This document shows positions 1,958 to 61,763 of a DNA stretch of 64,000 nt, piece after piece. The notes beneath the pieces were generated by a model, which saw nothing but the letters and a program-made list of their open reading frames with translations, did not search any database and was not told the DNA's origin. Source of the stretch: Ianthella basta (taxonomy: Eukaryota > Porifera > Demospongiae > Verongiida > Ianthellidae); NCBI GenBank assembly GCA_964019415.1, contig OZ025874.1:2816696-2880695 (forward strand), in the 5' to 3' direction. Every line of letters begins with the position of its first letter. The stretch's first letter is position 1. The position numbers and the translations under genes are program-made.

Positions 1958-2345
1958 ATGCCCTTGCCTGTTGAATATAAGATTTGGGTTGGTCCTTCCC
2001 AGTAACTGCAGCTTGCCGGGCTGGTCCTTTAGTAGTATTACTGGGGTTCTTGGCCAATGTTAACCTTCTTCCAGCTACAGTGAAACAAACAGTTCGAACC
2101 CTGTGCGTGTGTATAAGAACATAAGAATGTACTATGTATACTCATCAACACCACAGTGAGATTGTTATACTTATCTACCCACTACAGCCATGAGGGACAC
2201 TCTCTCACCTCCTGGTGGTCAGTAAGTATCCAATGAACCCAGATGCTACAATGAAGAGGGTCATAAAAAACACTGCAGCAAACAGAGTTGCCACAATGAT
2301 CACACTGTTATCTGGAGTATTGGATACACGACGTACAAGATTATG
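1958..2345 (-). pseudogene. Gene 1: fragment of a subfamily A receptor (TM exon plus decayed tail exon)
   Basis: Reading on the minus strand, 2345-2209 encodes a transmembrane segment (NTPDNSVIIVATLFAAVFF then GFIGYLLTTRR) ending at a GTGAGAG donor, matching the end of exon 4 in intact paralogs. A downstream stretch near 2080-1965 resembles the usual tail exon (LAKNPSNTTKGPARQAAVTG), but in a frame that does not follow from the CTGTAG acceptor. The tyrosine motifs are absent. Homology to exon 4 stops abruptly near 2345, and the tail exon of the next copy begins 168 bp further on. It is a degenerate 3' remnant of a copy, or less likely an alternative 3' end for gene 2. Confidence 0.6.
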
Positions 2346-2512
2346 TTCATGTGCTGGCACAGTTTAAAGGCTAAGTTGTACACAGATGTCACTTTTGAGA
2401 GTAATAATGAATTTTAGTTTATGTGCCATTAGTCCAAATTAAAGATGTCAGACAGCATTATATAAGGTAATATGATTAGTATGCATTTGCACTTGTTACA
2501 CACAGCACTCAT

Positions 2513-4084
2513 TCACACACTATAGCTAGAAGTCATCCATTTCTGATAAGATAATAGATAAGAATAAAGCTCTAATTCACTCTCTTGTTTAGCATGCGCT
2601 TTAGGTTGCTCCCTCCTAGTAGCTGCTTGGGCTGGAGCTGTGTTGGGTCTAGTAGTCTTCTTGGCCACCCTTGCACCTGTAGAACGGGTAGTTTGATGCC
2701 TGTATGCAAGTGATAGAATGAGTATAGGAGTTATAGGTACCTCAGTGTTCACATGTCTGCTCAGAAAACTATCTCACCTCCCGGCTGCTAGTATGTAGTA
2801 GTACGAAATTTGTCTTCCCCGTTATCAAACATATCCCAGTGCCACCATAGACCTGAATGTGTATGATTAGCTATTTCCATGTACAAGTAAATTAGGATGG
2901 TAAAATGAACTCCTTAGAAATGGGGTGAATCTTAGTGTTGAGTAGTTTGTTGCTATGCTTTATCTGCTGGCCTTTCCTAAATCCCTTTCAATTTTGAAGA
3001 ATTTTTTATTATACTAGCAATTATGATTATTAGATGCATGGTGTATGTTTGCATGTTATTTATGCTGTCATGTGCCTTACCCATTTAGCCAATTAGTCAA
3101 TGTAGTCAAGAACATCAGATCAACTGTAGCATCAGTGGAGTACAGGTAGGCTCTGAAGGTGATGTAGCCTTTAGTTCTACACATGAAGTAGCCGTTGCTC
3201 ATGCAGTCTAATGTCATTGATGACTGTGTAGGAGCACTGCTGACTGTATTTACTGATGGCCACTGCACCTCATACTGTACTAACACATGCTGGAGAGGTC
3301 CTGCAAGTGTAGAATGTGGGATAACACTAAATTATATTATGATGGATGTGGGATGTACAATTCATAAAATAATGTCATTAAGCTACTCCCTTTAAGCACA
3401 ATTATGATATAATCATTAGCATGAATGCTTCAGTCTGGTGTGAGGTTTCCTTACAATGAATTTACGACATATTTGAGCTGGCCAGAGTAGGATGTTTAAT
3501 TCAATGGCAATTTAGAAAAATGATTGCCAAAGGAGTGCATGCATCTTGTGGAAAATGATTCAATAGATAGGTGCATGTGTACTTCCTGCATTATATGCGA
3601 ACACATATGCACCTAATTCGACGTAAATTTGTTAGGAGAAAAAATACGCAGGTGTACGTTTAGGCCTGTACGCTCTGACCCACATCACATATTGACCATA
3701 GTTGGACATGGCAGCATTGAATTCAAATGAAGATCCAGTCACAATCAGATGGCGGTCAGAGTAAGATATTGAGGTAATGGAGGATGTGGAACCAGATCTC
3801 TCCCTGTAGAATATGGCAAAGTAGTTGATGTAGCTGGAGCTGTGATAGCCATCTACAACTTTCTAGGAGAAGGTGATGCGAGTGCTGGTTCTGTGGGACA
3901 CTTGGAAGTTGATGATGACATCCTGCTGGGCACCTGCATCTATTTGATGTAGTTACATTATGAATGCCGTCATAATGCACTTGTACATTGCAGTGTAGTA
4001 TACCTGTTTATCTCATTTACCTGAGAATGTTCCACAGAACAGCAACATCGCCATGGCAATAAATTTGGGAAGGAGAGCTGCCAT
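2513..4084 (-). pseudogene. Gene 2: degenerate subfamily A receptor gene
   Basis: All five exon positions are recognisable. The signal-peptide exon is 4084-4021 (MAALLPKFIAMAMLLFCGTF), the FN3 exon is about 3933-3613, the linker exon about 3515-3460 (IAIELNILLWPAQICRKF), and the partial ectodomain exon about 3300-3080. The tail exon is 2699-2513. The FN3 exon has two in-frame stops, one of them replacing the conserved Trp of the TFSW motif. The ectodomain exon stops after TNWLNG, where a chance GTAAGG follows. Most of the TM exon is missing and only its last bases near 2790 remain. The tail exon is shifted after ELEL, so it ends KWMTSSYSV and loses the YxN and YxxM motifs. It looks non-functional as a receptor. 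Confidence 0.8.
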
Positions 4085-4845
4085 TTGTGTCAATTCAAAT
4101 CTGACAGCTCTAGAGACCAGAATCATTACACATATCATGAAAAACAGACAAAATAATTATAAGCTACTGTCAATACTAATGATGGCAAAAGTTTTCTCCA
4201 CAGGAAGTTCCCCAAATGTACTTATTACACACCTCACCTGCAAGTGCAACACAGTATGAGATCCCTTAAGCATCTTGCACAGAATGTCTCTCCCACCTTT
4301 TGTGGCATGCATGTATTACTTGTAATCTGGTGTGTATAATATATATGTAGTACATACGTACATATGTATATAGTATTGGTACAATGATGTCACAGATGGC
4401 GCGTTGTACTAATGCATGAACACATGCAAAATATATTGGTACGTGTGCACTCTAATCAGTTATAAGTAGTGTCAAGTGTGCATAATGGACACCAAATCTG
4501 TGCTCATTATGTTGTTTACACATAACTATCTCACTTGTCTTTAAAGTCAAGATAAGTGGTCTGTCCACAGCAAAATTAGCTAAGGTTGACATACCTAAAT
4601 GAGTACAAAGATTCTCGGGACGACATTTTCATGAACTTCAAGAGTAATAATGAATCTTAGTGCTCCATTATTCTATTGTGAAGATTCAAAACCAAATGAA
4701 TTGTGGGGTGTCAGACAGCATAAGAAAATATGATTTGTACGCATTTGAACTTGCCACACAATCACGCTCATTAATGTAGAGGATACAATGATAATCTGGT
4801 TTCAAGCAAAGTCTGAAAACACACCACACACTGCACACACTGTAG
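4085..4845. other. Intergenic spacer between genes 2 and 3
   Basis: No coding exon is seen. The part next to gene 3 (about 4590-4845) is its 3' flank: the minus-strand transcript runs into a GT-rich stretch after the stop codon. This flank is duplicated downstream of most subfamily A genes. No canonical AATAAA signal was found close to the stop. Confidence 0.5.
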
Positions 4846-6425
4846 TTAGAAGTCATCCATCTCAGTGTATATCTCATCCTGATTAGGATGATAGTGAGTC
4901 TCTAATTCACACTCTTGTTTAGCATGCGTTTTAGGTTGCTCCCTCCTAGTAGCTGCTTGGGCTGGAGCTGTGCTGGGTCTAGTAGTGATCCTGGCCTCCC
5001 TTGCACCTGTAGAACGGGTAGTTCTATTCCTGTATACAAATGATAGAATGAGTATAAGTTATATAATTATGTAACTCAGTGCTCTCCTAACATTTAAAAA
5101 GTGCATGCACATGGCTGCTTAGAAAGCTATCCCACCTCTTGACCGCTAGTATGTATCCAATGAGTCCAAGAGACAAGATGAAGAACATAACAGCAAATAC
5201 AGAGGCCACAATGACAGCAGTGTTGTCTTGAGTTGGAACTGCTGATGTGGCCATGGATGAGGATCCTTCCTCAGTCAGCTGAGTGGCTGCAGGTGGGCTG
5301 CATGTCGGCGCATAGAGGTGTGGTATGGTCACTCCACATGAACCTGGCTCTACAGAATACCGTCTTCCATATATGGTAATAGTTTTATCTGAGTCCCGTC
5401 CGAGCAGCCAAACTGTCAAGGTACTCTTTAGTGTCGCTGGATTGGCAGTAATAGTAGTTGAAAGAAGGTTGGCCCTGAAAGTGATGTAGCCTTCAGCAAC
5501 ACAGGTGAAGTAGCCATTGTTCAAACGGATGTATTGGAAATATGGATAAGCACACTGGCAGTACTTTCTGATTCCCCAGTACACCTCATTCTGTACTGCA
5601 CTAGAAATGTCAGTTGACTGTGCCTGTACAAGCAGTAGAGAAGGTATTAATTATAATATTGGTTCTGAAGTTCTCCAATGGGCCGGGTGTTGCAGCTGGT
5701 GTGTCTGTGCGTAGCATTAGTAATACTATAACAGCATAAGATTCTCACAGTGAAGTCGAAGCATGTTTGAGAAGGCCAAAGCTGTATGTTCACTTCAATG
5801 GAGATTTGCCGTCCTATAAGCAAGTATACAGTGTAACGTAAGATTTAGAGCAAGTATTATAAGTATGTTTTTATTCTGTTTGTATAAGAATTGATGTGAA
5901 GAGGATGGATAACACTAATGTGCTTCAATATTGACATTTGCATCACAAGTAGTGACTTACCTACTTCAACATAAATTTCATCAGAATACGTTCCAGGTGG
6001 AGTAAGTCTAGACCTGTACACATAGACTGCCATGAGGTACTGTCCATAAGTAGAGAAGCTGGTCACAGTTGTGGTGTACTGAAAGGAAGCTCCATTCACA
6101 TTGCTGTCAGAGTAAGAAAATGAGCCAATTAGGGAACGATAGCCAGAGGAAGCAGATCTCTCCCTATAGTAAATGTAGAAGTAGTCAATGTAGTAGTTGG
6201 TGTAGTAGCCATCGACAATGTCCCAGGAGAAGGTGATGTGGGTGCTGTTCTGACTGGCCACTTGGAAGTTGCTGATAGCATCCTGAGCATCTAGAAGTGA
6301 GTAGGGCATTAAAGAGTTACAACGCGTTTTCACAGATCTTTTTACGTAACTTGCTTTATACCTGTTGGTACTCCAAGCAGCAGGACAAGTGCTGTGACAG
6401 CAAACAGTGAAAAGAAAATAGCCAT
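4846..6425 (-). CDS. Gene 3: FN3/SEA-like type I membrane receptor, subfamily A, 376 aa
   Basis: Exons on the minus strand: 6425-6362, 6290-5961, 5813-5749, 5623-5136 and 5029-4846, with GT/AG borders and phases 1, 1, 0, 2. The ATG directly follows a CTACAG acceptor, so the leader lies in an upstream exon (6691-6634). Residues 1-21 are a signal peptide (MAIFFSLFAVTALVLLLGVP). Residues 22-131 form an FN3 domain with an N-glycosylation site and the core Trp (NSTHITFSWDIVDGYY). The linker plus exon 4 form a domain with six conserved Cys (QTC, KYCQC, FTC, SCG, PTC). A Ser/Thr/Ala stalk and one TM helix (AVIVASVFAVMFFILSLGLI) follow. The tail is about 60 residues and ends HYHPNQDEIYTEMDDF. It is predicted to sit in the plasma membrane. 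FN3, TM and tail are firm by motif; SEA-like and ligand recognition are inference. Confidence 0.85.
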
Positions 6426-11807: not shown

Positions 11808-13569
11808 TTAGAAGTCATCCATCTCAGTGTATATCTCATCCTGATTATGATAATAACGGGACTCTAATTCACACTCTTGTTTAGCATGTGTTTTAGGTTG
11901 CTCCCTCCTAGTAGCTGCTTGGGCTGGAGCTGTGATGGGCCTAGTAGTCTTCTTGGCTACCCTTGCACCTGTAGAACGGGCAGTTTGATGCCTGTAGTAT
12001 GTGAATGGTGGAATTTCAATGAGTATATGTATGAGACATACCTGTCAACATTTCACATATTTGTGTCTGCTTAGAAATTTCTCACCTTCTGGCAGCCAAT
12101 ATGTATCCAATGAGTCCCAGACACAAAATGAAGAACATGGCAGCAAACACAGAGGCCACAATGACAGCAGTGTGGTCTTGAGCACTGGCTGCTGGCATTG
12201 ATGAGGATGCTGCCCCAGTCAGCTGAGTGGCTGCAGGTGTACTGCATGTTGGGGCATAGAGTTTTGGTAGTGTCACTCCACATGGACCTGGCTCCACTGA
12301 GTACCTCCTTCCATATATGGTAATAGTTTTGTCTGTGTCCTGCCCATGAAGCCAAGCTGTCAAGGCACTCTTCAGTGTTGCAGGATCAGCTGTGGTACTA
12401 GTTGAAAGAAGGTTGGCCCTGAAGGTGACATAGCCCCCAGCAGCACAGGTGAAGTAGCCATTGTTCAAAGTGATGTATTGGAAGTAGAGATAGGTGCACT
12501 GACAATACTTTCTGATTCCCCAGTACACCTCATTCTGTACTGCATCGTTTGTGCTCGTTGACTGCCCCTGCATGTGAAGGTACAGTGGAGGAAGCACTCT
12601 GATTGCATGAGGCATGATGATGATTATGAAGTTCTCTAATTGCAGCAGCTGCTTGTACACAAATGTGAATACACTTTTGCATAACAATACCATACAATGT
12701 TGAATTTTCATTGGACTGCCAAAACGACTGATTACAGCATGATTTATGAATCAGTTATAGGAATTTGATTTCAACTTTACTCTATATACTTATACTTTTC
12801 TTTACTGTAGGTCAGAAAGTAGCCTTAGGCTAACAGTTCCCTGGTGAAATAAGGTTACCTGATACCTGACACCTGTTACTCACAGTGAATTCAAGGCATG
12901 TCTGAGATGGCCAAAGCTTTATGTTCACTTCAATGGAGATTTGCCGTCCTGTATAATATTAAAGTGCAGGTATACAGTGCACAGTATGTAGAGGTTTAGA
13001 GCTAATGTATCTAAGATGAGAGAATGAGGACAATATGAATGAAGCTAAATAAATGTGCTATCATTGCAATTGCATTAATTGATGACTCACCTACGTCAAC
13101 AGAAATTTGTTCAGAGTAAGAAGCAGTAGGTTCAAGGCTAGGCCTGTACACATACACCCACATGATGTACTGGCCATAAGTAGAGAAACTGGTCACAGTT
13201 GTAGTGTATTGAAATGATGTCCCCAATTTAATCAACTTCACATCAGAGAATGCTATATATATGCTGGTCCTGGCACCCCTGTAACCTGATCTCTGCCTAT
13301 CATATATTCTGAAGTAGCTGATGTAGCTGGAGGTGTAGTAGCCGTCCACAATGTCCCAGGAGAAGGTGATGTGGGTGCTGTTCCTGTTGGCTACTTGGAA
13401 GTTGCGGATAGCATCCTGGGCATCTACAAGTGAGTAGGGTATTAATGATCATGAGTTGCAATGCATTTCCACAGATCTTGCTTGTTTATATAACTTGCTT
13501 TGTACCTGTTGGTACTCCGAGCAGGAGGACAAGTGCGGTAACAGTGAACAGTGGAAGGAAAATTACCAT
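11808..13569 (-). CDS. Gene 4: FN3/SEA-like type I membrane receptor, subfamily A, 375 aa
   Basis: Exons: 13569-13506, 13423-13091, 12948-12884, 12567-12086 and 11991-11808; all borders are GT/AG and the frame is open. The signal peptide is MVIFLPLFTVTALVLLLGVP. The FN3 domain (residues 22-132) begins DAQDAIRNFQVANRNSTHIT and has a slightly longer middle loop (YRGARTSIYIAF) than gene 3. The linker reads RQISIEVNIKLWPSQTC. The ectodomain has the six Cys in the usual places and GPCGVTLPKLYAPTC before the stalk. The TM helix is TAVIVASVFAAMFFILCLGL. The tail ends RYYHNQDEIYTEMDDF, so the first motif is YHN rather than YPN; both fit pYxN. The ectodomain closely matches gene 11 and pseudogene 10. 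Leader exon 13773-13716 lies upstream. Confidence 0.87.
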
Positions 13570-15974: not shown

Positions 15975-16025
15975 GGGAACCACCATCCCTGCTAGAGGTG
16001 ACCTCTAGCAGGGATGGTGGTTCCC
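15975..16025. repeat. Second copy of the 51-bp perfect palindrome
   Basis: Identical in arms and centre to 10149-10199. Both arms are preserved without mismatch in both copies. Confidence 0.9.
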
Positions 16026-16472
16026 CACAGAGCCCCTTTCCCCATTCCACCTTTTAGAGGTGGAATAGCTGCATAGTCGAGGATATCCTACTTTGGTCAT
16101 AGAGTATGCGTACTGACATATACACTGAATGCACTTTTCTATTAAGCAATCCAATTATATTGAAAGGGGGCAATTGCTTTTTGCAGTTGGCCACTGCGAG
16201 GCAATAGATTGAAAGTGTAATCACTGGATATTACACCTAACCTACCAACTACACCAGTATTGGTGCCTCAGTTGGCAGGGGGGCACAAAGCCCTATTGAA
16301 CAATGCTGCATGTAGAAGTGGTTCAATGCAAATGCCTACCTAGAGTCTTATGGGGCCTGTCATGTGAAAATTGGACCCCCACAATATACGTCCCCCCGGT
16401 CCAAATGTTTCGAAATATTTGGACCACTACTGAAATATAAGTTTCCCTACATTGCACACATAGAAATGGCGG

Positions 16473-17613: not shown

Positions 17614-19110
17614 TTAGAAGTCCTCCATTGCAGTGTATATCTCATCCTGATTAGGATAATAATGAGTCTCTACTTCACACTCTTGTTTAGCATGCGTTTT
17701 AGGTTGCTCCCTCCTAGTAGCTGCTTGGGCTGGAGCTGTGCTGGGTCTAGTAGTCTTCTTGGCCACCCTTGCATCTGTAGAACGGTCAGTTTGATGCCTG
17801 TAGTATGTGAATGGTGGAATGAGAATATAAATCATACCTCTACTTTCACTTAACATTCATGACTTTGTGTGCAGCTGATGAGAATCTAACCTCCTGGCCG
17901 CTAGTATGTGTCCAATGAGTCCAAGAGACAAGATGAAGAACATGGCAGCAAACACAGAGGCCACAATGACGGCAGTGTTGTTCTGAGTTGGAGCTGCTGG
18001 AGTAGTTGTGGATGATGATGCTGCCTCAGTCTGAGTGGCTGAGAGTGTGTTGCTGCATTCTGGAGCATAGAGTTGAGGTACTGTCACTCCACATGGACCT
18101 GGCTCCACAGAGTACTGCCTTCCATATATGGTAATTGATTTGTCTGTTACCTGCCCATGCAGCCAATTGGTCAGTGTGCTCTTGAAAGTGTCTGGATTAG
18201 TAGTAATGTCAGTTGAATACAGGTGAGCTCGGAATGTGACATAGCCATTTGTACTGCAGGTGAAGTAGCCGTTGTTCAGTCTGATGTCATCTATGACTGG
18301 GTAGGTGCAGTGGCAGTACTTCCTGAGTGCCCAGTACACTTCATTCTGTACTGCCGTGTAGGTGTTGGTTGAGAGTTCCTACATACAGAAGAGGGAAACT
18401 ATAATACTCAATTTTTGATAGTTAATGGCACACACTATTATATAAATTTGAGTCATTGCGATATTACTCACAGTAAACTCATGACAGGTTTGAGACAACC
18501 AAAGCTTTATGTTCACTTCAATGGAGATGTGCTGACCTTGGTTGGTTACGGAGAACAGATATATGTGGCATATAATAGTGAGTAAAACATGCACATGGTT
18601 AGAAGGATTAAGGGGGCATACAATATTAATTTCACTTACCTAAATCTACAGAGACTTGATCAGAGTAGGAGCTTGAAGGTGCAGGACTAGACCTGTATAC
18701 ACGGACCCACATGACATGTTCACCATTGTATCCAGTCGCAATAGTAGTTATAGTGTACTTAAAGGAGCGTCCCGACTGAATCAGATTGACATTTGAGGTT
18801 AAAACTGTGAAGTAGCCAGTATAGCCAGAACCAGATGGAGCCCTGTAGTATATGCGAAAACTATTGATGTAGCTGGAGGTGTAGTAGCCATCCACAATGT
18901 CCCAGGAGAAGGTGATGTGAGTAGTGTTTCGTTTGGCTACTTGGAAGTTGCCGATAGCACCCTGGGCAACTGCATGAGTTGGATAGAACTACAGCATTGA
19001 AGTACCGTGTGCGCGTATTCACCAAAAATGATTAAATCTATTTTACCTGCAGCTGTGGGTATTCCGCACAGCAGGACAGCTGCTGTTATAATGAACAAGA
19101 AAGCAGACAT
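17614..19110 (-). CDS. Gene 5: FN3/SEA-like type I membrane receptor, subfamily A, 376 aa
   Basis: Exons: 19110-19047, 18969-18640, 18536-18472, 18378-17891 and 17797-17614, open throughout. The signal peptide is MSAFLFIITAAVLLCGIPTA, unlike the neighbours. The FN3 domain starts VAQGAIGNFQVAKRNTTHIT and has its own loops (RAPSGSGYTGYFTVLTSNVN). The linker is GQHISIEVNIKLWLSQTC. The ectodomain keeps six Cys but differs widely from genes 4 and 6 (CSTNGYVTFRAHLYSTDITT). The stalk has a Ser/Thr run. TM is followed by LAARRLDS only in the retained intron; the spliced tail ends HYYPNQDEIYTAMEDF, so YTEM is YTAM, still YxxM. A spliced leader may end at GTGCAG/GTAAGC near 19435. It is the most divergent intact member of subfamily A. 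Confidence 0.86.
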
Positions 19111-22162: not shown

Positions 22163-23703
22163 TTAGAAGTCATTCATCTCAGTGTATATCTCATCCTGAT
22201 TAGGATAATAGCGAGGCTCTACTTCACACTCTTGTTTAGCATGCGTTTTAGGTTGCTCCCTCCTAGTAGCTGCTTGGGCTGGAGCTGTGCTGGGTCTAGT
22301 AGTCTTCTTGGCCACCCTTGCACCTGTAGAACGGGTAGTTTGATGCCTGTAGTATGTAAATGGGTAGAATGAGTATAATGTATGAGGCATACATGTCAAC
22401 ATTTCACATATTTGTTGCTGCTTATATAGAAATCTCTCACCTTCTGGCGGCCAATATGTATCCGATGAGTCCCAGGCACAAAATGAAGAACATGGCAGCA
22501 AACACAGAGGCCACAGTGACAGCAGTGTTGTCTTGAGCACTAGCACTGGCTGCTGATGTCGGCATAGAAGTACCCACTGCTTGAGTGGCTGCTGGTGAGC
22601 TGCATGCTGGGGCATTGAGGTCTGGTACTGTCACACCACATGGACCTGGCTCTACAGAATAGCGTCTTCCATATATGGCAATTGTTTTGTCTGTGTTCTG
22701 CCCATATAGCCAAGTGGTCAAGGTGCTCATTAAGGCTGCTGGACCCAGAACACCAGCAGAGTAAAGAGTGGCCCTGAAAGTGACATAGCCACCAGAGGCG
22801 CAGATGAAGTAGGCATTGTACATTCGGATGGATTGCAAATAGGAGTAGTTGCACTGGCAGTACTTTCTGATGAACCAAAACACCTCATTCTGTACTGCAC
22901 CAGATGTGCTGATAGACTGTTCCTGAAATTATATTGAGAGAGTGTTTCAGTACTGCACTGCATGGCAATATGAATGGAGTGTTTCAAACAAACATTGCTT
23001 ACAGTGAACCCAAGACATGTCTGAAATGGCCAAAGTTGTATGTTCAGTTCTATTGTAAAATACCTACAGCAGGAGAATACAGAAGTAATAAGTATGGTAT
23101 GGTATGTGAAATATTGACCAAGCAGACAAGGAGCTCAGTCAAGGGTGCATGCTTGTGGTTGCATGCAACAGTGGTTCTTGGAATGCTACCAGAAATGCCA
23201 TGTACTTGCTCCATTCTTGTGTGCATTCACTTACCTACTTCAACATATATTAGTTCGGAGTAAGAATACTGAGGTGTACGGCTAGGCCTGTATACCTGGA
23301 GCCACATGACATTTTGGCCAGAGTAACGAAAGCTGGTCATTGCAGTGGAGTATTGAAATGAAGCACCAGATTTGATCAGCTGTGTGTTGGAGTATGTTAT
23401 ATATATGCTGGTGCTGGAACCACTTCTATCCCTGTATAATATGTGAAAATAGCTGATGTAGCTGGAGCTGTAGTAGCCATCCACAATGTCCCAGGAGTAG
23501 GTGATGTGGGTGCTGTTCCTGTTGGCTACTTGGAAGTTGCGGATAGCATCTTGGGCATCTGAAAATGTGTGAATTTGACATATGTCATTAGGTTATTGTG
23601 TACAGTCATAGAAATATAGCACACTTAAACCTTCTTCACCTGTGAGTGCTCCACATAACAGGACAACTGCTGTCACAGCGAATAGAGGATGGAGATTTGC
23701 CAT
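22163..23703 (-). CDS. Gene 6: FN3/SEA-like receptor, subfamily A, linker exon altered
   Basis: Exons: 23703-23640, 23558-23235, linker, 22922-22441 and 22346-22163. The signal peptide is MANLHPLFAVTAVVLLCGAL. FN3 has THITYSWDIVDGYYSSSYIS and a short loop (GSSTSIYITYSNTQ). The ectodomain and TM are nearly the same as in gene 7. The tail ends RYYPNQDEIYTEMNDF. In the linker exon, the usual acceptor (23063) would now give a 61-nt exon that is out of frame and meets a stop, because four bases are missing relative to gene 7. A new CAATAG acceptor gives 23049-23003, 47 nt, back in frame, and yields 366 aa lacking six linker residues. It is either a gene rescued by a shifted acceptor or a young pseudogene. 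Confidence 0.65.
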
Positions 23704-36155: not shown

Positions 36156-37395
36156 TTAGAAGTCATCCATCTCAGTGTATATCTCATCCTGATTAGGATA
36201 ATAGCGAGCCTCTAATTCACACTCTTGTTTAGCATGCGTTTTAGGTTGCTCCCTCCTAGTAGCTGCTTGGGCTGGAGCTGTGCTGGGTCTAGTAGTCTTC
36301 TTGGCCACCCTTGCACCTGTAGAACGGGTAGTTTGATGCCTGCAGTATGTGAATGGTAGAATTTCAATGAGAATAATGTATGAGGCATACATGTTGACAT
36401 TCATATTTGTTGCTGCTTAGAAATCTCTCACCTTCTGGCAGCCAATATGTATCCGATGAGTCCCAGACACAAAATGAAGAACATGGCAGCAAACACAGAG
36501 GCCACAATGACAGCAGTGTTGTCTTGAGCAGTGGCTGCTGATGTTGGCATAGAAGTACCCACTGCTTGAGTGGCTGCTGGTGAGCTGCATGCTGGGGCAT
36601 TGAGGTCTGGTACTGTCACTCCACATGGACCTGGTTCTCGATGGCCGACATGAGTTCCAGTCAAAGTCGCTCCAAACGAATCCAGGGGGTGTGGTGGAAG
36701 GGATGGATAAAAGGAAGCGGAGCCTGTGCCGCGGGCTTGATGGTTTCGAGTTGTCTTCCGCGCGAACGCGTGGCTAACCGCCGCCATTTTGGTGACGTCA
36801 CACTACGCTACGCGTGGCGACCAGTCGAGCGGGTACCATATCTATAGCCTGACGGCTTTTCGGTGCCCGTTAGCCGCTGAATCCAGGGTCCGCAGCCACC
36901 ACCGTTTCGTGAGGAGTAGTCCAGATTCTGGTGGTGATTTCTCTGACTCGCCTTTGGACTCGCAATCCATGGGGAGTGCCATCTTCTATGCGCTAGATAG
37001 TGGCAGGGGGTTGTGTCACCCAGGACGTTCCCCCTGCTGCTGGCCCAGGCTTTCCCAGGGCCCTGCCATCACAGCACTTCGTGCTGTGGGCAGATTTCAA
37101 GGTTCAAGGTTCAAGGACCTGGTTCTACAGAGTAGCGTCTTCCATATATGGCAATTGTTTTGTCTGTGTTCTGCCCATATAGCCAGGTGGTCAAGGTGCT
37201 CTTTAAGGCTGCTGGACCCGGAACAACAGTAGAATAAAGAGTGACCCTGAAAGTAACATAGCCTCCAGAGGCACAGATGAAGTAGGCATTGTACATTTGA
37301 ATGGATTGCAAATAGGAGTAGTTGCACTGGCAGTGCTTTCTGATGAACCAAAGCACCTCATTCTGTACTGCTTGGGCTATGCTGGTAGACTGTTC
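36156..37395 (-). pseudogene. Gene 8: 5'-truncated subfamily A receptor with a retroposon in exon 4
   Basis: Only exon 4 (37395-36432) and the tail exon (36339-36156) remain. Exon 4 is split by a 476-bp insertion (36639-37114) between GPCG and the preceding Tyr-Ser-Val-Glu-Pro region. Outside the insertion the coding sequence is intact and close to genes 6 and 7 (KHCQCNYSYLQSIQMYNAYF; tail ends RYYPNQDEIYTEMDDF). Upstream of 37395 the intron runs about 45 bp and then switches to sequence that lies far upstream of gene 6 (about 24780-24900), so exons 1-3 and the promoter were deleted. It is not able to make the standard receptor. Confidence 0.85.
36627..37126 (+). mobile_element. GC-rich retroposon (SINE or truncated LINE) insertion with 12-bp target duplication
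   Basis: GGACCTGGTTCT occurs at 36627-36638 and again at 37115-37126, flanking 476 bp of foreign sequence. The insert is much richer in G+C and CpG than anything else in the window. It ends in a tight hairpin (CACAGCAC, loop TTC, GTGCTGTG) followed by a 7-bp tandem tail (TTCAAGG repeated). Those 3' features are known from CR1/L2-type LINEs and from SINEs that use their machinery. It has no recognisable protein. Insertion is in the opposite direction to the host gene. Confidence 0.75.
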
Positions 37396-39457: not shown

Positions 39458-39505
<48 letters not shown>

Positions 39506-41932: not shown

Positions 41933-44455
41933 TTAGAAATCATCCATCTCAGCATATATCTCTTCAGGCTTTTCGGGTGCATAAAAGTAGGCATTGGCAC
42001 ATTCAACCTGTTTCTTTGCACAATTTTCCTCTTTAGCTGCCTTCAGTGCACTCCCTTGCATTATTCTGTAGGAATAGTAAGTGCCAAAAGACTGAAGCAT
42101 AAAACATAAATGAATCAGAATATGAATAATTGCAAAATTTTGATGTGACTTGGTAAATGGTGCACACATTAACTGGACACACAAGTATGAGAAATAGAGT
42201 GCCATGCATGGCAGTACGCTTGCAAAGATGAAGCATTAATTGGTCTTGTTTTAATGCTGGCAATAGTTCTTGGATCGAACTACAGTTCTTGATAGGTGTA
42301 GACCAAACATGGTTGAAAATATAGGGGGGAGAGAGGGGGGGGATGTTGGAGGAAGGTTATAGCAGAGCCATGCATGAAAGGATCTATCAAAGAATAGCTG
42401 AATCAACAGAATTCTGTGCCTACAGAGTTTTATGGAGTCATACAGTACATGTACCAATCAAAAATTTAATCGTCAATTTTGAATGATGAATGGATGGCAA
42501 TCTGCATAGGAACTTTACATGTTTATATAGGGTTGGTTATCAGCTATGCATATATATATAACAGTGCATGCTGGTTGCAGAATTAGGCATACCAGTCAAC
42601 AAAGGCTGTAGACACAATTTTGCAATTAGTAGAGACAGCATCTCGATATGTGTACAGTAGGTGTTGTAGAGTATGAATTTTGCATAATTATGCATATATA
42701 TGAGCAAGTTGTGTGTACACTCACTTTCTTGTGAATACACATATGTACACTATGAGCCCCAATGCCAGGATGAAGAACATAGCAGCAAAAACTGTTGCAA
42801 TGATGATTGCAGTGTTGTTCTGAGTAACTATTGAGTTGACTTGGGGAGTGCTGCTGGAAATGTTACCTGAAGGCAGTGTAGCATCTGGTGTAGAGTGTGT
42901 AGATGGAGGCATTGATGATTCAGAGTCCAGTGTGCTGTTAAAACAGTGAGGAAAGTCAAGGTTTGGTACAGTCACTCCACATGGTCCTGGTGACAATAGG
43001 TATCTCCTTGCCCTGACAGTGATCTGTCGACTTCCTTTCTCACCACTTAACACATCTGTGAGGTTGCTTGTAAGGAATGTCAGATCCAATGTAGGGTTCT
43101 TAGAAGACAGCCAAACTCTGAAAACAACATAGCCACTGGTGGCACAGGTGAAGTAGCCGTCTCTCATTTCAAAGTCCGAAGGCAAAGTACACTGACAGCT
43201 TTGAAATAATATCCAATACACACCCTGGAATGCTTGTGTGTGGAGTAGATCATAGTAGTAGAAGGGATCTATAGCTGAGGCTTCTTCCTGCATAACATTA
43301 TAATTAATGCAACGATAGATAACAAGGTGCAAGTAGTCATTAGAAAATAATTATACTACAATTGCTATCCATCGTTAATTCAAAGAAAATAACTCTGCCT
43401 GCTACCATGATCACAGTACCACAAACTGCAATTGCACCGGCCACTGACATTAAAATGCAAGAATGGCATCTACTGTTCCTTCTTTGGCATGCTTTACATT
43501 TTATTAAGACATGCAGAAGCTAGCTTATACCAATGCTTCAATGCTAATGTACAGTAACATATTATATATTAAACTAATACCTGTAAACTCACAATGAAGT
43601 CTTGACAGGTTTGAGAGGGCCAAAGGTGTATTTTGAACTCAAAAGTAACTTCTTGCTCTTGAATACCTGCATGAATGCACAAAGTCGCTATCCACGAATG
43701 CGTTTGAATACCTTGTTCACTAAATATAATTTCAGTGCATTCAGAGCAAAAACACATACATTCACAAATTGAATGAATACTTAGTTTTGAGAACTCAGAC
43801 AGTATCAATCCTTGCAGTGTACTGGATGAACCAATTACTATAATGTTATGTCTTGTCCCACTGAATGAAAGTAAGGTATTACTCACCATGCACCATTGGA
43901 AATGCAGCGATTAACAATTTATATTATAAAATTTTGTGTTCTTTGTGCTAGAACAATTATTCACTTACCCAAGCTTAAGATCACAAATGTTCTTTCTGAA
44001 GTAGGGTATGTAGGTTGAAGTGGTCGGCGTCTAGACACTCTAACCCACATAATATACTGTTCATATTGAAAGTTATCCACAATTGAAGAATATATGAATG
44101 TAGTGACTTCATTGCTGATGGTGTTTTGAGTTGCTGAACTGTAAGCGATGTACAGAGACCGAATGGTATGTTTGTGCTGATAGTATATACTGAATGAGTT
44201 AATGTAGCTGGAGCTGTAGTAGCCATCCACAATGTCCCAGGAGAAGGTGAAGTGGGTGCTGTTCCTGTTGGCAACTTGGAAGTTGCGAATGTGCTTCTTC
44301 TGGGCAGCTGCATGTGTGGAGTTCCAAGTTATAACAGATAATAAAATATATCTTGTATATGTATGATTAGCTGCTTACTGTAGTGGAATATGTTTTGTAC
44401 CTGTGAGTGGAGCACAAAACAGCAATGTTGCAATTGCAGTTGCAAGAAGAATCAT
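41933..44455 (-). CDS. Gene 9: FN3/SEA-like type I membrane receptor, subfamily B, 387 aa
   Basis: Exons: 44455-44401, 44307-43969, 43666-43593, 43287-42725 and 42065-41933, phases as in other genes. The signal peptide is MILLATAIATLLFCAPL; an in-frame upstream ATG (MCADAKEADFVK) could add 12 residues. FN3 keeps NSTHFTFSWDIVDGYYSSSY, and the C-terminal strand differs (ERTFVILSLG). The linker exon is 74 nt (GIQEQEVTFEFKIHLWPSQTC). The ectodomain keeps the six Cys (SCQC, FTC, GPCGV, PHC) and has an insert of acidic/aromatic residues at its start. The stalk is long and Ser/Thr/Pro-rich, probably O-glycosylated. TM is AIIIATVFAAMFFILALGLI. The short tail (about 44 residues) ends FYAPEKPEEIYAEMDDF: YxxM kept, no YxN. 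An ETS plus TATA-like promoter lies at 44680-44730. Confidence 0.85.
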
Positions 44456-48939: not shown

Positions 48940-49716
48940 TTAGAAGTCATCCATCTCAGTGTATATCTCATACTGATTAGGATAATAACGGGACTCTAAT
49001 TCACACTCTTGTTTAGCATGCGTTTTAGGTTGCTCCCTCCTAGTAGCTGCTTGGGCTGGAGCTGTGTTGGGCCTAGTAGTCTTCTTGGCCACCCTTGCAT
49101 CTGTAGAACGGGTAGTTTGACGCCTGTAGTACGTGAATGGTGGAATAAATATAAGAATCATAATCATGTAATCTCTACTTTTCACTTAACATTATAGCAT
49201 TCATGCATATGCGTGTAGCTGATGAGAATACTCTCTCTCATCTCCTCGCCGCTATTATGTATCCAATGAGTCCAAGAGACAAGATGAAGAACATGGCAGC
49301 AACAACACACAGGCCACTGTCACAACAATGTTTTCTTGAGTAGGAGTTACTGGAGTGGATGAAGACACTGCCATGGATCGAGTGGCTGCAGGTGTGCTGC
49401 ATGTGGGTGCATAAAGGTGTGGTATTGTCACTCCACGTTAACCTGGCTCCACAGAGTACCTCCTTCCATAAATGGTAATTGTCTTGTCTGTACCCTGTCC
49501 ATGCAGCCGATGGTCACTTTTCAATGTTGCAGGATCAGCTGTGGTACTAGTTGAAAGAAGGTTGGCCCTGAAGGTGACATAGCCCCCAGCAGCACAGGTG
49601 AAGTAGCCATTGTTCAAACGAATGTATTGGAAGTAGAGATAGGTGCACTGACAATACTTTCTGATTCCCCAGTACACCTCATTCTGTACTGCATTATTTA
49701 TGCCCGTTGACTGCCC
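48940..49716 (-). pseudogene. Gene 10: degenerate subfamily A copy (exon 4 and tail)
   Basis: Exon 4 (49716-49242) starts normally (NEVYWGIRKYCQCTYLYFQY) and is nearly gene 4 in its first half. It then has an in-frame TAA where GPCG should follow, a shortened NWL region (KSDHRLHG), an out-of-frame TM segment and a donor changed from GT to AT. The tail exon (49123-48940) is intact and ends RYYPNQYEIYTEMDDF, with Asp changed to Tyr after the YPNQ. Exons 1-3 are absent. Upstream lies another relic of exon 4 instead. Confidence 0.85.
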
Positions 49717-49867: not shown

Positions 49868-50345
49868 CACCTCCTGCATGGTAGCCAGTTAGTATTCATT
49901 GAGTCCCAGAGACATGGCAGCAGACACGAAGCCACAATGATGGCAGTAGTTTTCCATCCTGGTGTGGGTTGGGATGCCAACCCAGTCTGAGTGGCTGCAT
50001 ATAGTTGTGTTGTATCCTGTGACATATAGAGGAACGCACCACACCTAAGGTGTGGTACATACAGTTACCCCACATGAAACGGGCTCTAACGAATAATCCT
50101 TTCCATAAATGGTGTTATATTTAATTGTGTTCACTTGCCCATGCAGACAAGTAATCAAGGTTTTCTTAAAGGAAGAAGCCAGATCGGTGGTAACATCAGT
50201 TGAGTGCATGTGGGCTCTAAAGGTAACATATTATAGCCATTTGTACTGCTTTTGAAATACCTGTTAGTCATGCACTCTAATGTCATTAATGACTGGGTAG
50301 CTGTAAGCACACTGATAGTATGTATTTCCCAAGGGCCATGCATTG
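49868..50345 (-). pseudogene. Gene 10b: relic of exon 4 only
   Basis: A decayed copy of the ectodomain/TM exon, recognisable from the GGAG/GTGAG donor through TVYPHM-like and TFRAHMHSTDVTTD-like stretches to a KYCQC-like start. It has several frame breaks. Neither a tail exon nor exons 1-3 accompany it. Confidence 0.7.
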
Positions 50346-50527: not shown

Positions 50528-52090
50528 TTAGAAATAATCCATCTCTGTGTATATCTCATCCTGAGGTTGCTCCCTCCTAGTAGTGGCTTGGGCTGGAGCT
50601 GTGCTGGGTCTAGTAGCCTTCTTGGCTACCCTTGCACCTGTAGAACGGGTAGTTTGACGCCTGTAGTACATGAATGGTAGAATAGTATATGTAGTATGTG
50701 AATGGTAGAATGAACAATTGTAAGAATCATAACTCCACATTCACCAATGTAGCATTCATGTGTGTAGCTGATGAAAATGCTCTCTCACCTTCTGGCTGCT
50801 AGTATGTATCCAATGAGTCCAAGAGCCAAGATGAAGAACATGACAGCAAACACACAGGCCACAATCACAGCAAGGTTATCCTGAGTAGGAGTTGCTGGAG
50901 TGGATGAAGACACTGCCATGGATTGCGTGGCTGCAGGTATGCTGCATGTTGGGGCATAGAGTTGTGGTACTGTCACTCCACATGGACCTGGCTCCACAGA
51001 GTACCTCCTTCCATAAATGGTAATTGTTTTGTCTGTATTTTGTCCACGCAGCCAATTGGTCAAGGTACTCTTCAATGTTGCAGGATCAGCTGTGGTACTA
51101 GTTGAAAGAAGGTTGGCCCTGAAGGTGACATAGCCCCCAGCAGCACAGGTGAAGTAGCCATTGTGCACACGGATGTATTGGAAATATGGATAAGCGCACT
51201 GGCAGTACTTTCTGATGCCCCAGTACACCTCATTCAGTACTGCACTAGAAATGTCAGTTGACTGTGCCTGTACAAGTAGTAGAGAATTAAGTCATTAATA
51301 TTGGTTCTGAAGTTCTCCAATGGGCCGGGTGTTGCAGCTGGTGTGTCTGTGCATAGCATTAGTAATACTATAACAGCATGAGATTCTCACAGTGAAATCG
51401 TGGCATGTTTGAGTAGGCCAAAGCTGTATGTTCACTTCAATGGAGATTTGCCTTCCTACGAGCAAGTATAATTATATGCATTGTAATGTAAGGTTTAGAG
51501 CAAGTATTATAATTATGCACTTATACTGTTTGTGTAAGAATTAATGTGAAGAGGATGGATAACACTAATGTGCTTCGATATCAACATTTGCATCACAAGT
51601 GGTGACTTACCTACTTCAACATAAATTTCATCAGAATACGTTCCAGGTGGAGTAAGTCCAGACCTGTACACATAGACTGCCATGAGGTATTGTCCATAAG
51701 TAGAGAAGCTGGTCACAGTTGTGGTGTATTGAAAGGAAGCTCCATTCACATTGCTGTCAGAGTAAGAAATAGAGCCAAATTGGGAACGATAGCCAAGGTA
51801 ACCAGATCTCTCCCTATAGTAAATGTAGAAGTAGTTAATGTAGGTGGAGGTGTAATAGCCATCCACAATGTCCCAGGAGAAGGTGATGTGGGTGCTGTTC
51901 CTGTTGGCTACTTGGAAGTTTCGAATAGCATCTTGGGCATCTGTAGGTGTTTAGATTGAACATAATTATGGTATTAAGTTTGTAGTGTGCATTCACATAA
52001 GCATAGTATGGATGAAACTTCTTCACCTGTGAGTGCTCCACATAGCAGGACAACTGTTGTCACAAGAAACAGAGGATGGAGATTAGCCAT
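50528..52090 (-). CDS. Gene 11: FN3/SEA-like receptor, subfamily A, shortened tail, 356 aa
   Basis: Exons: 52090-52027, 51940-51611, 51455-51391, 51267-50789 and 50660-50528, all open. The signal peptide MANLHPLFLVTTVVLLCGAL matches gene 6. FN3 matches gene 3 closely (YSDSNVNGASFQYTTTVTSF, LMAVYVYRSGLTPPGTYSDE), and exon 4 is between genes 3 and 4. The receptor is therefore a mosaic. Six Cys, a Ser/Thr/Pro stalk and TM (AVIVACVFAVMFFILALGLI) are present. The tail exon is 133 nt instead of 184: a 51-bp in-frame deletion joins RREQP directly to QDEIYTEMDYF, removing the YPN motif but keeping YTEM, and the last residues are DYF rather than DDF. A leader exon may end at CATG/GTAGGT near 52230. 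Expected to signal through YxxM only. Confidence 0.86.
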
Positions 52091-53808: not shown

Positions 53809-53864
<56 letters not shown>

Positions 53865-54370
53865 ACACACACACACGCACACACACATTCACACACACAC
53901 ATGCACTCGCACACTTTCGCATTCATGCACACATCTATATGTATGTACCACATGTTTACTGACATAGTGACAGCACGTCTGGTTCAAGCAGTGCACGTGG
54001 GAATCATTACCCCAAAAGGAAATTGAATAGTTTGACTATAAGCTACTGGTTACTGACTGCGGCCATCTAGAACGGACAACTGACCCAAACGACCGTGTGC
54101 AGCCATTCTCAGCAATCGTACGTATTAATGCATATTAGTAGCATAGCCAAACTGTTTGCATTGGAACATCATTGTTTAATAATGCTTCTCAATCATTGTG
54201 AGTGAGTGCATGCATATGATCATGACCTCCTTGTAATGAACACTTGCAGTGGCACACTATTGAATACATGGTAAAGGATGTCTTTGTTGTTTTCAAAGAG
54301 TAATGTAGTGAACACACATTAATGTTTAAAAGCTCACGCTAAAACAACACTCGTAATTACTACAAAATAG
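52091..54370. other. Gene-free region between genes 11 and 12
   Basis: Includes a C15 run (53533-53547) and a CA microsatellite (53811-53910). The stretch 53960-54310 next to gene 12 is duplicated beside gene 13 (59680-60070). Otherwise nothing is recognised. Confidence 0.55.
53811..53910. repeat. (CA)n microsatellite downstream of gene 12
   Basis: CA repeat of about 100 bp with a few CG and TT interruptions. A longer homologous tract sits in the same position relative to gene 13 (59450-59620), so it predates the duplication of genes 12 and 13. Confidence 0.95.
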
Positions 54371-55927
54371 TTAAAAATCATCCATTTCAGTGTATATCTC
54401 TTCTGGTTCAGAATAGTAACGGGGATCCTCCAACTGCTTGTCAGTGCAGGTCTGTTCAAGTACATGTGGTTTGGCTGTGACAGTCTCTTTTGCTGATTTC
54501 TGTTCAGCTGAAGAGTTTCTTGCAGTCCTGTGAATACAGTCAGAATGTGTGAAGCAGTGGATGAGCTTGTTGTATATGCATACATTGAAAGCTGCATACA
54601 AAGTCCCACCTGCAACATATGTACTGCATGTCTGTATTATCATAAACTGAAATGGCTCCTGACATAGTAGCAGCATCCTGGCTATTAGCTATGTACCCAA
54701 GCATGGAGCTCTGCCTAGACTTGCAGACTAGTCTGTCTAGCGCAACTTACTTTCTACTGAGAACATTTATGTATCCAATGAGTGCTATGGAAAGGATGAA
54801 GAATATGCTAGCTAAAACGGAGGTCACTGTGATGGCTGCAGTGTTGTCTTGATTATGATTCACAGCAGCAGCTAAGGATACACAGTGTGGAGCATGGAGA
54901 TCTGGAATGGTCAGCCCACAGGGCCCTGGACCAATGAAATATCCCTTTCCATTGAGGAAGATTGCTCTGTTCTCATCTCCTCCCAAAAACCAGTTGGATA
55001 GACTATTCTTTAGAGCTGTCAGATCTAATGTAATGTTTTCAACAGTGGACAGTCTAGCTCTGTAGATGACATAGCCACTTGCACAAGTGAAGTAGTCATC
55101 TTCCACTGTAAAGTCATATGGCAAAGAACAACGGCAACTCTTAAAAAGTAGCCAGAGCACTTCTCTGCTAACTTGGCTGCTGATGGAGGTTGATGCTCCC
55201 TGCATTAATTAAGCATAATTTTAAGCTATAATTTGATAAACATTAATTTTATTGAAGCAAGTCTGGCCATCACAGCTAATGTATTCACCAGCAACTCACA
55301 ACAAAGTCAGAGCAGGTTTGAGTATGCCAAAAATGTACTTGATATTCAAGAAATATCTCTTGCACTGGTAAATCTGTGCAATTAATATAGTAAAGTTTTA
55401 CACAGAATATCTTCCAATATACAAATGTCAATTAAACTGCCAAATGAATTGTACACTCTGTAGTACTTACCCAATGTAATTAATTGTTTTGCAGAATTCA
55501 CAACACTAGGGACCAGTCGGCTATATCGGTAAACAGTAACCCACATGATGTTTTCCTTCTCAGAAAAGTTTTCCAAAGAAGTGGTGTACATGAAAGTGGT
55601 GGTATCATTAGTGATGATATTCCAAGTTGTTGATCTGTATGGAATGTATAGTGACCTGGTAGAAGAGCCATATTGGTAATACAAACGGAAGTAGTATATG
55701 TAGCTGTAGTATCCATCCACAATGTCCCAGGAGACTGTGACATCAGTGCTGTTCTGATCAACTTGGAGATTACGAACGTGTTTCTCCTGGGCAACTGTAA
55801 GGAAAATCAGGTGTTGGACTCAAATGTAAGCAGAGTAGCAGTACACAACATTTAGAGATCAAGTACCTGTGAGGGATGCAGACAGCAGTACTGCTAGCGC
55901 TGTAGTGAGGAGAGCACCCATTGCCAT
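54371..55927 (-). CDS. Gene 12: FN3/SEA-like type I membrane receptor, subfamily B, 354 aa
   Basis: Exons: 55927-55867, 55794-55471, 55373-55300, 55199-54751 and 54527-54371. The signal peptide is MAMGALLTTALAVLLSASL. FN3 is VAQEKHVRNLQVDQNSTDVT then SWDIVDGYYSYIYYFRLYYQ. The linker is DLPVQEIFLEYQVHFWHTQTC (21 residues with the last Cys). The ectodomain is compact: KSCRCSLPYDF, YFTCASGYVIYRARLSTVEN, GPCGLTIPDLHAPHC, followed by almost no stalk. TM is AAITVTSVLASIFFILSIAL. The tail (about 52 residues, with one Cys) ends DPRYYSEPEEIYTEMDDF: YxxM kept, the YPN position is YSE. The ETS/TATA promoter pair lies at 56197-56227. About 90 percent similar to gene 13 in exon 4 by eye. Confidence 0.87.
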
Positions 55928-59450: not shown

Positions 59451-59492
<42 letters not shown>

Positions 59493-59514
59493 ACACACAC
59501 ACACACGCACACAC

Positions 59515-59611
<97 letters not shown>

Positions 59612-59625
59612 TTACGCACACATGT
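59450..59625. repeat. (CA)n microsatellite downstream of gene 13
   Basis: Almost pure CA repeat of about 170 bp followed by a CATG/GCATGCAT-rich stretch. Confidence 0.95.
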
Positions 59626-60125
59626 GCACACATGCATGCATGCATTCATGCACGCATACATGCTTACTCACATGAAGACAGCAAGTCAGGTTCAAGCAGT
59701 GGCAAATGGAGGAAAAGACAGACTTATTCGAGCAATTTGAGACCAAGGACTTAAGGGCATGGACATTTCTGCTCCAAGGGGAAGTGTCTAGTTTGACTAT
59801 GATTTACTGACAACCAGTTGCAACCGTCCAATCAGGGTCAACTGACCTAAAAAACACTGTGCACAACCAGTCACAGCCATCGTGCATATTAGCAACATAG
59901 CCAAACTGTTTGCATTGGAACATCATTGTTTACTAATAATCATGCTTCTCAATCATTGTGAGTGAGTGCATTGACATGACCGCCTTGTAATGAACACTTG
60001 CAGTGGCACACTGATGTATATTATACATGGTAAAGTATGTCTTTGTTTTCAAGGAGAAATGTAGTGAACACGTATGTACTGTATGTATTCTAGTTTACAC
60101 TAAAACAACCCTTGTAATTACTGTA

Positions 60126-61763
60126 TTATAGATAAAAATCATCCATTTCAGTGTATATCTTATCTGGATCAGAATAGTAACGGGGATCCTCCAATTGCTT
60201 GTCAGTGCAAGTCTGTTCAAACGTTTGTGGTTTGACTGTGACAGTCTCTTTTGCTGCTTTCTGTTCTGCTGGAGGGGTTCTTGCAGTCCTGTGAATACAG
60301 ACAGAATGTGTGAAGCTGTAGTGAGTTTGTTGTACAGTCATATATGTACGTACTTTGAGCTGCATACAAAGTCCCACCTGTAACATACTGCATGCTTGTA
60401 TATCATAAACTGAAATGGGTCCTGACCTAGTAGCAGCATCCTGGCTATTAGCAATGTACCCAGGCATAGCGTTCTGCTCATACAGGCCAATTATATATAG
60501 TTTGTCTAGTGCAACTTACTTTCTACTGAGAACATTTATGTATCCAATGAGTGCTATGGAAAGAATGAAAAACATGCTAGCTAAAACGGAGGTCACTGTG
60601 ATGGCTGCAGTGTTGTCTTGATTGAGATTCACAGCAGCAACTAAAGATACGCAATGTGGAGCATGGAGATCTGGAATGGTCAGCCCACAGGGCCCTGGAC
60701 CAATGAAATATCCCTTTCCGTTGAGGGAGATTGCTCTGTTCTCATCTCCTCCCAGTAGCCAATCAGCTAGGCTATTCTTTAGAGCCATCATATCTAATGT
60801 GATGTTTTCAACAGTGGACAGTCTAGCTCTGTAGATGACATAGCCACTTGCACAGGTGAAGTAGTCATCTTCCACTGTAAAGTCATATGGCAAAGCACAG
60901 CGACAGCTCTTAAAGAGCGTCCAGTACACTTCTCTGCTAACTTGGGTGCTGATAGAGGTTGTTGCTCCCTGCATTAATAGAGCATATTTTCAAGCTACAA
61001 TTTGTATATTATTGGAGCAAGTGAGGCCAGTATATAGCAAAACAATTACAAGCAACTCACAACAAAGTCAGAGCAGGTTTGAGTAGGCCAAAAATGTATT
61101 TTAAATTCAAGAATTACCTCTTGCATTGGAATATCTGTAGAAATTGGCATGGCAAAATATCACAAAGCATTTGCAATGTACACCTGTTCAATTAAGTTGC
61201 AACCCAAGTGAGCATGCTATATAATGTAGTGTAACCTACTAAATGTCACCAACTGTTTTGCTGTATTCACCACACTGGGGTTCAGTAGGCCACTTCGGTA
61301 CACTCTAACCCACATGATGTATTCTTCTTCATTGAAGTTCTCCAAAGAAGTGGTGTACATAAAGGTGGTGGTATCATTATTGATGATATTCCAAGTTGCA
61401 GATCTGTATGGGATGTACAGTGACCTGGTAGAGGAGCCATATTGGTAAAAGAAATGGAAGTAGTATATATAGCTGGAGCTGTAGTATCCATCCACAATGT
61501 CCCAAGAGACTGTGACATGAGTGGCGTTGTGAACAGCTTGAAGATTATGAGCATGATTCTCCTGGGCAGCTGCATTAGGGAAATAAGGGGATGGACTCTT
61601 TTACCCCTTTTATATGAACAAAATCTGGATTCAATCTGCAGTAAATCTTTCATGTCATTGGCTGTAGAAGGGGTGTTATAGACATGCATACAACATTTCC
61701 ATGTCCAGTACCTGTGATTGCAGACAGCAATACTGTTGTAGTGAGAAACATTCCCAGCATCAT
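60126..61763 (-). CDS. Gene 13: FN3/SEA-like type I membrane receptor, subfamily B, 355 aa
   Basis: Exons: 61763-61712, 61569-61240, 61134-61061, 60968-60520 and 60288-60126. The signal peptide is MMLGMFLTTTVLLSAIT. FN3 is AAQENHAHNLQAVHNATHVT, then SWDIVDGYYSSSYIYYFHFF. The FN3 donor is A/GTAGGT instead of G/GTAAGT. The linker is IPMQEVILEFKIHFWPTQTC. The ectodomain is as gene 12 with few changes (KSCRCALPYDF, GPCGLTIPDLHAPHC). TM is AAITVTSVLASMFFILSIAL. The tail ends RYYSDPDKIYTEMDDFYL: the family stop codon has become TAT, so two residues (YL) are added before the next stop, which would remove a free DDF C-terminus. The promoter pair is at 62018-62049. Confidence 0.86.

Follow-up and report, generated by a model that had tools for sequence, protein, structure and literature searches.

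A tandem array of type I receptor genes with a single FN3 domain and tyrosine-motif tails in the sponge Ianthella basta, and its possible role in recognition

We analyzed a stretch of 64,000 nucleotides from the demosponge Ianthella basta (assembly GCA_964019415.1, contig OZ025874.1, here C7; G000:C7:2816696-2880695), hereafter the window, together with the genome searched (209 Mb, 96 contigs). The window contains part of a gene family arranged as a tandem array, whose members are predicted to possess an FN3 domain, a module with six cysteines (six-Cys), a transmembrane (TM) helix and a tail with tyrosine motifs. Exon-by-exon mapping and an inventory placed 13 six-Cys/TM exons in the window, all on the minus strand. 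Nine of them are open (class A, 6; class B, 2; class C, 1) and 4 are decayed, the nine being a count of open six-Cys exons and not of proven genes. The window also holds 10 FN3 exons, one of which contains stops, and 12 tail exons. As E-values between different copies are as low as 6e-92, the array is not a product of chance. The preliminary description of this DNA was thus right about a tandem family on one strand, while its count of at least 14 copies in the window was too high.

The array is bigger than first noted and continues far beyond the window in both directions, over 269 kb (C7:2.670-2.939 Mb). The whole main array has 48 places, of which 35 are full-length open exons and 13 are fragmentary, short or decayed. 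The open full-length exons are on the minus strand in 34 cases and on the plus strand in one, and belong to classes A (11), D (9), B (4), C (4), E (4) and S (3). In at least one open place, A2933, the FN3 part is split across two frames. Five genome searches with six-Cys queries gave 61, 44, 38, 43 and 31 scored matches on C7 only, and all 41 matches of a genome search with the FN3 exon were also on C7.

Eight class-A genes were modelled, 6 of them within the window. Each has five coding exons, which encode a leader, the FN3 domain, part of the six-Cys module (a 65-nt mini-exon), the rest of this module with the TM helix, and the tail, and which are separated by introns of phases 1-1-0-2. All four introns have GT-AG borders in 7 of the 8 models (five of them from the window), the exception being A2839, so that the five exons with common phases of the preliminary description hold for 7 of the 8. 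The predicted products of the intact class-A models are 356-376 aa long and consist of a hydrophobic leader of ~21 aa, a single FN3 domain encoded by one 1-1 exon, the six-Cys module, a Ser/Thr/Pro-rich stalk, a TM helix and a tail of ~60 aa. Judged from this predicted order, the proteins are type I receptors. The FN3 domain was recognized (PF00041) with 27.5 bits when the exon was scored singly and 24.6 bits in the whole protein, compared to a Pfam gathering cut-off of 25, and no other family exceeded its own cut-off when these proteins were scanned with Pfam. Of the six conserved ectodomain cysteines, one is in the mini-exon and five are in exon 4, where they are invariant among 12 aligned copies, as would be expected from the six-Cys domain first described. 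The gene copies and remnants mapped in the window are as follows (window positions; exons of each gene in coding order).

60135..61570, minus strand: class B gene; FN3 61235-61570, mini-exon 61058-61123, six-Cys/TM 60519-60968, tail 60135-60299 with motif DKIYTEMDD; no leader exon in the model.
54371..55927, minus strand: class B gene B2871, provisional model; candidate leader 55867-55927, FN3 55471-55794, mini-exon 55300-55364, six-Cys/TM 54751-55199, tail to 54371, its start not fixed; AG at 3 of 4 acceptors as placed.
50528..52090, minus strand: class A gene A2867; exons 52027-52090, 51611-51940, 51391-51455, 50789-51267 and 50528-50660; GT-AG at 4 of 4 introns; tail short.
50051..50320, minus strand: decayed six-Cys exon fragment with stops.
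48943..49716, minus strand: decayed class A copy with a readable tail; its six-Cys exon contains a stop and a shift of frame, and an FN3 exon to go with it was not found.
41933..44455, minus strand: class C gene C2859, provisional model; candidate leader ~44401-44455, FN3 ~43964-44314, mini-exon ~43590-43655, six-Cys/TM 42724-43269, tail to 41933 with motif EEIYAEMDDF; AG at 2 of 4 acceptors as placed.
36159..37392, minus strand: decayed class A copy; six-Cys exon broken by an insert, tail readable.
27691..29220, minus strand: class A gene A2844; exons 29157-29220, 28753-29076, 28518-28582, 27959-28440 and 27691-27874; GT-AG at 4 of 4 introns.
22163..23703, minus strand: class A copy A2839; each exon open singly; probably disabled, since 4 nt are missing at the acceptor of the mini-exon and the frame is lost.
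17614..19110, minus strand: class A gene A2834; exons 19047-19110, 18640-18969, 18472-18536, 17891-18378 and 17614-17797; GT-AG at 4 of 4 introns.
11808..13569, minus strand: class A gene A2828; exons 13506-13569, 13091-13423, 12884-12948, 12086-12567 and 11808-11991; GT-AG at 4 of 4 introns.
4846..6425, minus strand: class A gene A2821; exons 6362-6425, 5961-6290, 5749-5813, 5136-5623 and 4846-5029; GT-AG at 4 of 4 introns.
2208..4022, minus strand: decayed class A copy; two stops in FN3, six-Cys exon broken, end motif gone from the tail.

The insert in the copy at 36159..37392 (36638-37114, 477 bp) has a guanine plus cytosine content of 58% in a region of 40%, is flanked by 11-bp direct repeats and resembles a mobile element; a second copy was not found among the fetched loci. 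Between the genes, two pairs of segments (9952-10251 and 15778-16077; 8923-9159 and 16063-16299) are 97-98% identical, which is closer than the ectodomain exons of neighbouring genes and points to recent segmental duplication or conversion. Long CA/TG simple repeats also lie between genes (~39400-39910, 53768-53976 and 59485-59707).

The six-Cys module had been labelled SEA-like, a label for which we found no sequence support. PF01390 (SEA) matched neither the 57 members of our alignment A3 (8 of which are mini-exon fragments) at E<=1 nor 10 proteins at E<=5. A PDB profile search with the module yielded nothing convincing (best E 1.3). When the module was aligned by hhalign with a small SEA profile, which combined one typed consensus sequence with four stretches from PDB, the E-value was 0.35 at a probability of 0.17%; the FN3 control did better (E 0.15). 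Searching the whole genome with PF01390 was not informative, as the control genomes gave no signal either. The SEA assignment is thus not supported by sequence, and Pfam gave no convincing match to the module. Other weak Pfam hits, such as C1q in 3 of the 57 members (best E 0.0014), were dismissed as chance. Immunoglobulin (Ig)-type hits in these scans were only weak (e.g., Big_8 at E 0.09 in P0106, a relative from another collection), and no sushi or Calx-beta domain was matched.

The tails fall into at least two types. An acidic YxxM end motif (EIYTEM and variants) is found in all 13 tails of classes A (9) and B (4), a set that excludes decayed copies, so that the phosphotyrosine-type tail first proposed is borne out at the motif level. 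A YxN motif is present in 7 of the 9 class-A tails (absent from A2867 and A2821) and in none of the 4 class-B tails. Class D appears to have a different tail with an NPxY-type motif and mostly a YxN motif at 6 of its 9 places (one decayed), as read from downstream candidate exons that were picked by acceptor and tyrosine pattern. YxxM binds the p85 SH2 domain of PI3K, YxN binds Grb2, and an acidic residue followed by I-Y-x-E is a site for Src-type kinases. In addition to the membrane-bound forms, three genes of the array with leader and FN3 exons (C7:2902, 2910 and 2915 kb) reach a stop before any TM helix and may encode soluble proteins.

A second, diverged array lies on the same contig, 0.6 Mb from the main array (C7:1833139-2050268; 19 minus-strand copies, one with a stop). 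Where its copies match the main array, they share 23-35% identity with it (best E 7.6e-8). The one copy that was read (L072, C7:1943700-1948700) contains two ectodomain exons of ~135 aa and a matching mini-exon and ends at a stop without a TM helix. Its ectodomain exons had no convincing Pfam match and gave 55 matches at C7:1.81-2.045 Mb, many of them weak or interrupted by stops.

Relatives were also found in other collections. A profile search of 5.8 billion proteins, a database that is not equivalent to the full set of animal proteomes, identified 105 homologous exons, of which none carried either an informative name or a precomputed Pfam domain; a full-length query gave 15 hits, one with a precomputed FN3, and a full-length profile gave 30. 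No relative was found among viral and prokaryotic genome contigs. Seven foreign relatives (P0009, P0078, P0106, P0107, P0108, P0112 and P0115) are on contigs of 995-1523 bp with frames uninterrupted over at least two exon junctions, and we take them for cDNA, the alternative being intronless genes. These uninterrupted frames confirm the predicted domain order. Among distant relatives the FN3 score is lower (P0106, 14.5 bits; P0113, 15.7 bits). P0112, 31-33% identical over the protein, ends in EQIYDEM, and P0078 ends in EQFYDDM; thus, of the 4 foreign relatives that are membrane-bound and whose tail end could be read, 2 carry YxxM, and the motif looks old. P0107 and P0115 stop ahead of any TM helix, as the three genes mentioned above do. 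P0117 and P0118 have identical tails and differing ectodomain ends, like the class-A tails described below, and their assembly may be chimeric.

We placed these relatives in a quick tree of 103 rows, made of 34 exons of our own, 65 of the 105 profile-search proteins and 4 full-length-query proteins, with short rows, the seven proteins of public contig 455905 and P0054 left out. Labels of origin (own, two contig groups, other) required 14 changes compared to 51.0 when shuffled; the contigs were grouped partly by similarity, so this test is not independent, while the contigs themselves are. Separate radiations comprise our own class-A block, seven genes of contig 2028934 with one gene of another contig, and a third group (SH-aLRT, a Shimodaira-Hasegawa-like approximate likelihood ratio test, 81, 80 and 98). 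The split of classes B, C and D from A and E is older than these radiations (SH-aLRT 99). Paralogues have thus turned over from one contig to another. The tree shows no single-copy orthologs in relatives, and no named housekeeping or adhesion family was among the matches of the protein searches. The architecture matches no named family in the collections searched, in agreement with the preliminary description.

Two public contigs bear on the reality of the array and on its variation; their listed proteins are representatives of 90% clusters. All 7 listed proteins of contig 455905, which looks independent, are identical to the assembly except for the start residue, over ~225 kb. This argues against an array inflated by alternative haplotypes or collapsed repeats placed end to end, as do the 11 aligned copies that are only 41-81% identical to the first at the protein level. 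A few copies are nearly identical (D2743 and D2777 have six-Cys exons with the same translation), as such an artefact would produce, and we regard it as very improbable. In contig 575170, 7 of the 8 proteins match the assembly at 96.7-100%, and this contig probably represents a second haplotype of the species. Its remaining protein, P0038, has no counterpart, as its best match in the whole genome is at most 76%. P0061 was also considered as haplotype-specific and was rejected; it matched at 81% in the partial assembly, but its whole-genome counterpart is 98% identical over 141 of 159 residues.

Within class A (36 pairs pooled), the number of synonymous substitutions per site (dS) decreases from 0.65 (0.49-0.83) in FN3 through 0.49 (0.38-0.64) in the six-Cys part and 0.33 (0.18-0.56) in the TM part to 0.09 (0.03-0.16) in the tail; as pairs share branches, these intervals are indicative only. 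This drop shows that the class-A tail exon has been homogenized, as by gene conversion, and that the ectodomain has diverged. The pooled number of nonsynonymous substitutions per site (dN) is 0.208, 0.144 and 0.060 in the class-A FN3, six-Cys and tail parts, respectively. The proposal that the ectodomain varies most therefore stands for class A and fails for class B, in which dN is highest in the tail (0.198, compared to 0.105 in FN3).

We consider it somewhat probable that the array forms a multigene complex whose type I receptors serve recognition, most likely of non-self. This reading is based on the one large array, the intact five-exon models, the YxxM end motif, the contig-specific radiations, the difference in gene content between probable haplotypes, the contrast between FN3 and tail in class A, the soluble members and the two tail types. 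The membrane-distal FN3 domain would bind a variable ligand, and the six-Cys module would serve as a membrane-proximal spacer, perhaps for dimerization. A Src-type kinase would phosphorylate EIYTEM, to which p85 of PI3K would then be recruited through its SH2 domain, and Grb2 would be added in the 7 of 9 class-A tails that have YxN. In class D, YxN and NPxY-type motifs would take over this signalling role, and decoy or ligand functions may fall to the soluble paralogues. The variable input would most likely be non-self, either allogeneic tissue or microbes.

Several observations weigh against recognition. Two of the radiations are only modestly supported (80-81), and the difference in gene content is a single case, P0038, that could be an assembly gap. 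Class B (6 pairs) lacks the drop in dS (FN3 0.27, tail 0.23), and the foreign relatives P0106 and P0108 end in QIYEET, without the Met of YxxM. FN3 has a dN/dS of 0.32 (0.24-0.42) in class A, an interval that is likewise only indicative, and of 0.39 in class B. The corresponding values are 0.29 and 0.27 for the six-Cys part and 0.64 and 0.87 for the tail. Gene-wide positive selection, which the preliminary description implied, was thus not found by pooled pairwise dN/dS in classes A and B. Ratios far under 1 in the FN3 and six-Cys parts would also be expected if an ordinary receptor family (adhesion, growth-factor-type or gamete) had expanded by unequal crossing-over, with drifting copy number and equivalent variants, and the 13 of 48 places that are fragmentary or decayed resemble those of any drifting array. 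The presence of at least two tail types, soluble members and contig-specific radiations, however, exceeds the needs of a redundant receptor, the class-A FN3 and tail exons differ in rate, and no named adhesion family was matched. We therefore find such ordinary receptors an unlikely explanation.

Recognition could also be directed at microbes only. The FN3 domain would then bind symbiont or pathogen surfaces and trigger PI3K-dependent uptake, and copy number would track microbial pressure with no role in fusion or rejection. This is one branch of our preferred explanation taken alone. The soluble and membrane forms that lie adjacent in the array and the class-specific tails are consistent with it. 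So is the abundance of SRCR candidates, of which a first look genome-wide gave 1173 (Calx-beta, 969; FN3, 2773; 150 scored in each case); this family is tied to sponge microbe recognition in the part of the source considered, which gives 811-2166 SRCR-like domains for three sponges and 1328 for sea urchin (PMC4772301). In a genome of 209 Mb, the three candidate counts are compatible with a sponge host. As a microbial ligand is not indicated by any of the data, we consider a microbe-only function possible, if on the unlikely side.

Within non-self recognition, the data do not separate the two targets, and we lean slightly towards allogeneic tissue because of the single linked locus, the difference in gene content between probable haplotypes and the soluble partners. 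An allorecognition role is plausible on these sequence features. A more specific proposal, which we think rather doubtful, is that of a demosponge histocompatibility complex, in which the main array would supply YxxM, YxN/NPxY and soluble receptors and the linked second array (C7:1.83-2.05 Mb) their partners or ligands. If true, allorecognition would here have an architecture that differs from the Ig-based ones found in cnidarians, tunicates and vertebrates. One mappable interval, gene models and tail motifs make the recognition question directly testable.

The aggregation factors of sponges, which are extracellular Calx-beta proteins, are a clustered family that has been proposed for self-recognition. 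Membership of the array in this family was rejected, as no Calx-beta domain was found in the Pfam scans and none of the best 150 matches scored of 969 Calx-beta candidates was on C7. According to the part of a transcriptome study considered here, sponges discriminate self from non-self grafts with remarkable specificity, and aggregation-factor genes were not enriched in grafts (PMC5450542). An FN3-based receptor array in sponges was not described in the titles and abstract openings of the open-licence literature among the matches listed. Clusters of Calx-beta exons elsewhere in the genome (C11 ~4.8-8.1 Mb, C6 7.36-8.47 Mb and C23 1.68-1.83 Mb) are possible aggregation-factor genes. Among other loci seen in passing, FN3 exons are densely packed at C12:1688478-1713223 and give recurring, nearly identical scores, which probably reflects internal duplication in a long multi-FN3 gene or a few such genes. 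Three adjacent cathepsin-L-like frames lie at C6:3129864-3135966 (L074); the one that was read carries Ser in place of the catalytic Cys, a feature of silicateins, though its best PDB matches are cathepsins.

Vertebrate KIR-type arrays have variable gene content, mixed tails, Ig domains and signalling of the immunoreceptor tyrosine-based inhibitory or activation motif (ITIM/ITAM) type. The Ianthella array is like them in array form and mixed tails, and in a gene content that may vary, and differs from them in having FN3 in place of Ig domains and YxxM or YxN/NPxY in place of ITIM/ITAM-type motifs, with no homology. The Hydractinia Alr complex, as described in the section of the source considered (PMC11067881), likewise consists of single-pass receptors whose genes are clustered in one region of the genome, together with many pseudogenes. 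In contrast, Alr proteins belong to the immunoglobulin superfamily, whereas the sponge proteins have one FN3 domain and the six-Cys module with no Ig match in the Pfam scans. Polymorphism is established for Alr in that account, while here it was compared from two haplotype-like contigs, in the second of which 7 of 8 proteins were matched and 1 of 8 was without a counterpart. The fester family and co-receptors of the Botryllus fuhc locus, in the parts of the sources considered (PMC12065747, PMC3691228), would be similar in being large linked families with variation in gene content, tyrosine motifs in the tails and a secreted polymorphic partner in the locus. Their co-receptors combine Ig and sushi domains with ITIM or hemi-ITAM (hemITAM) motifs, in contrast to FN3 and the six-Cys module with YxxM or YxN/NPxY here, and no ectodomain homology to Botryllus fester proteins was found, nor any Ig or sushi domain in the Pfam scans. 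By this comparison, the array appears to resemble the clustered receptor families of Hydractinia and Botryllus in its working, shares the ectodomain type of neither and would be a member of neither. If the preferred reading is true, the array represents recognition receptors with tyrosine tails that are built on FN3 instead of Ig.

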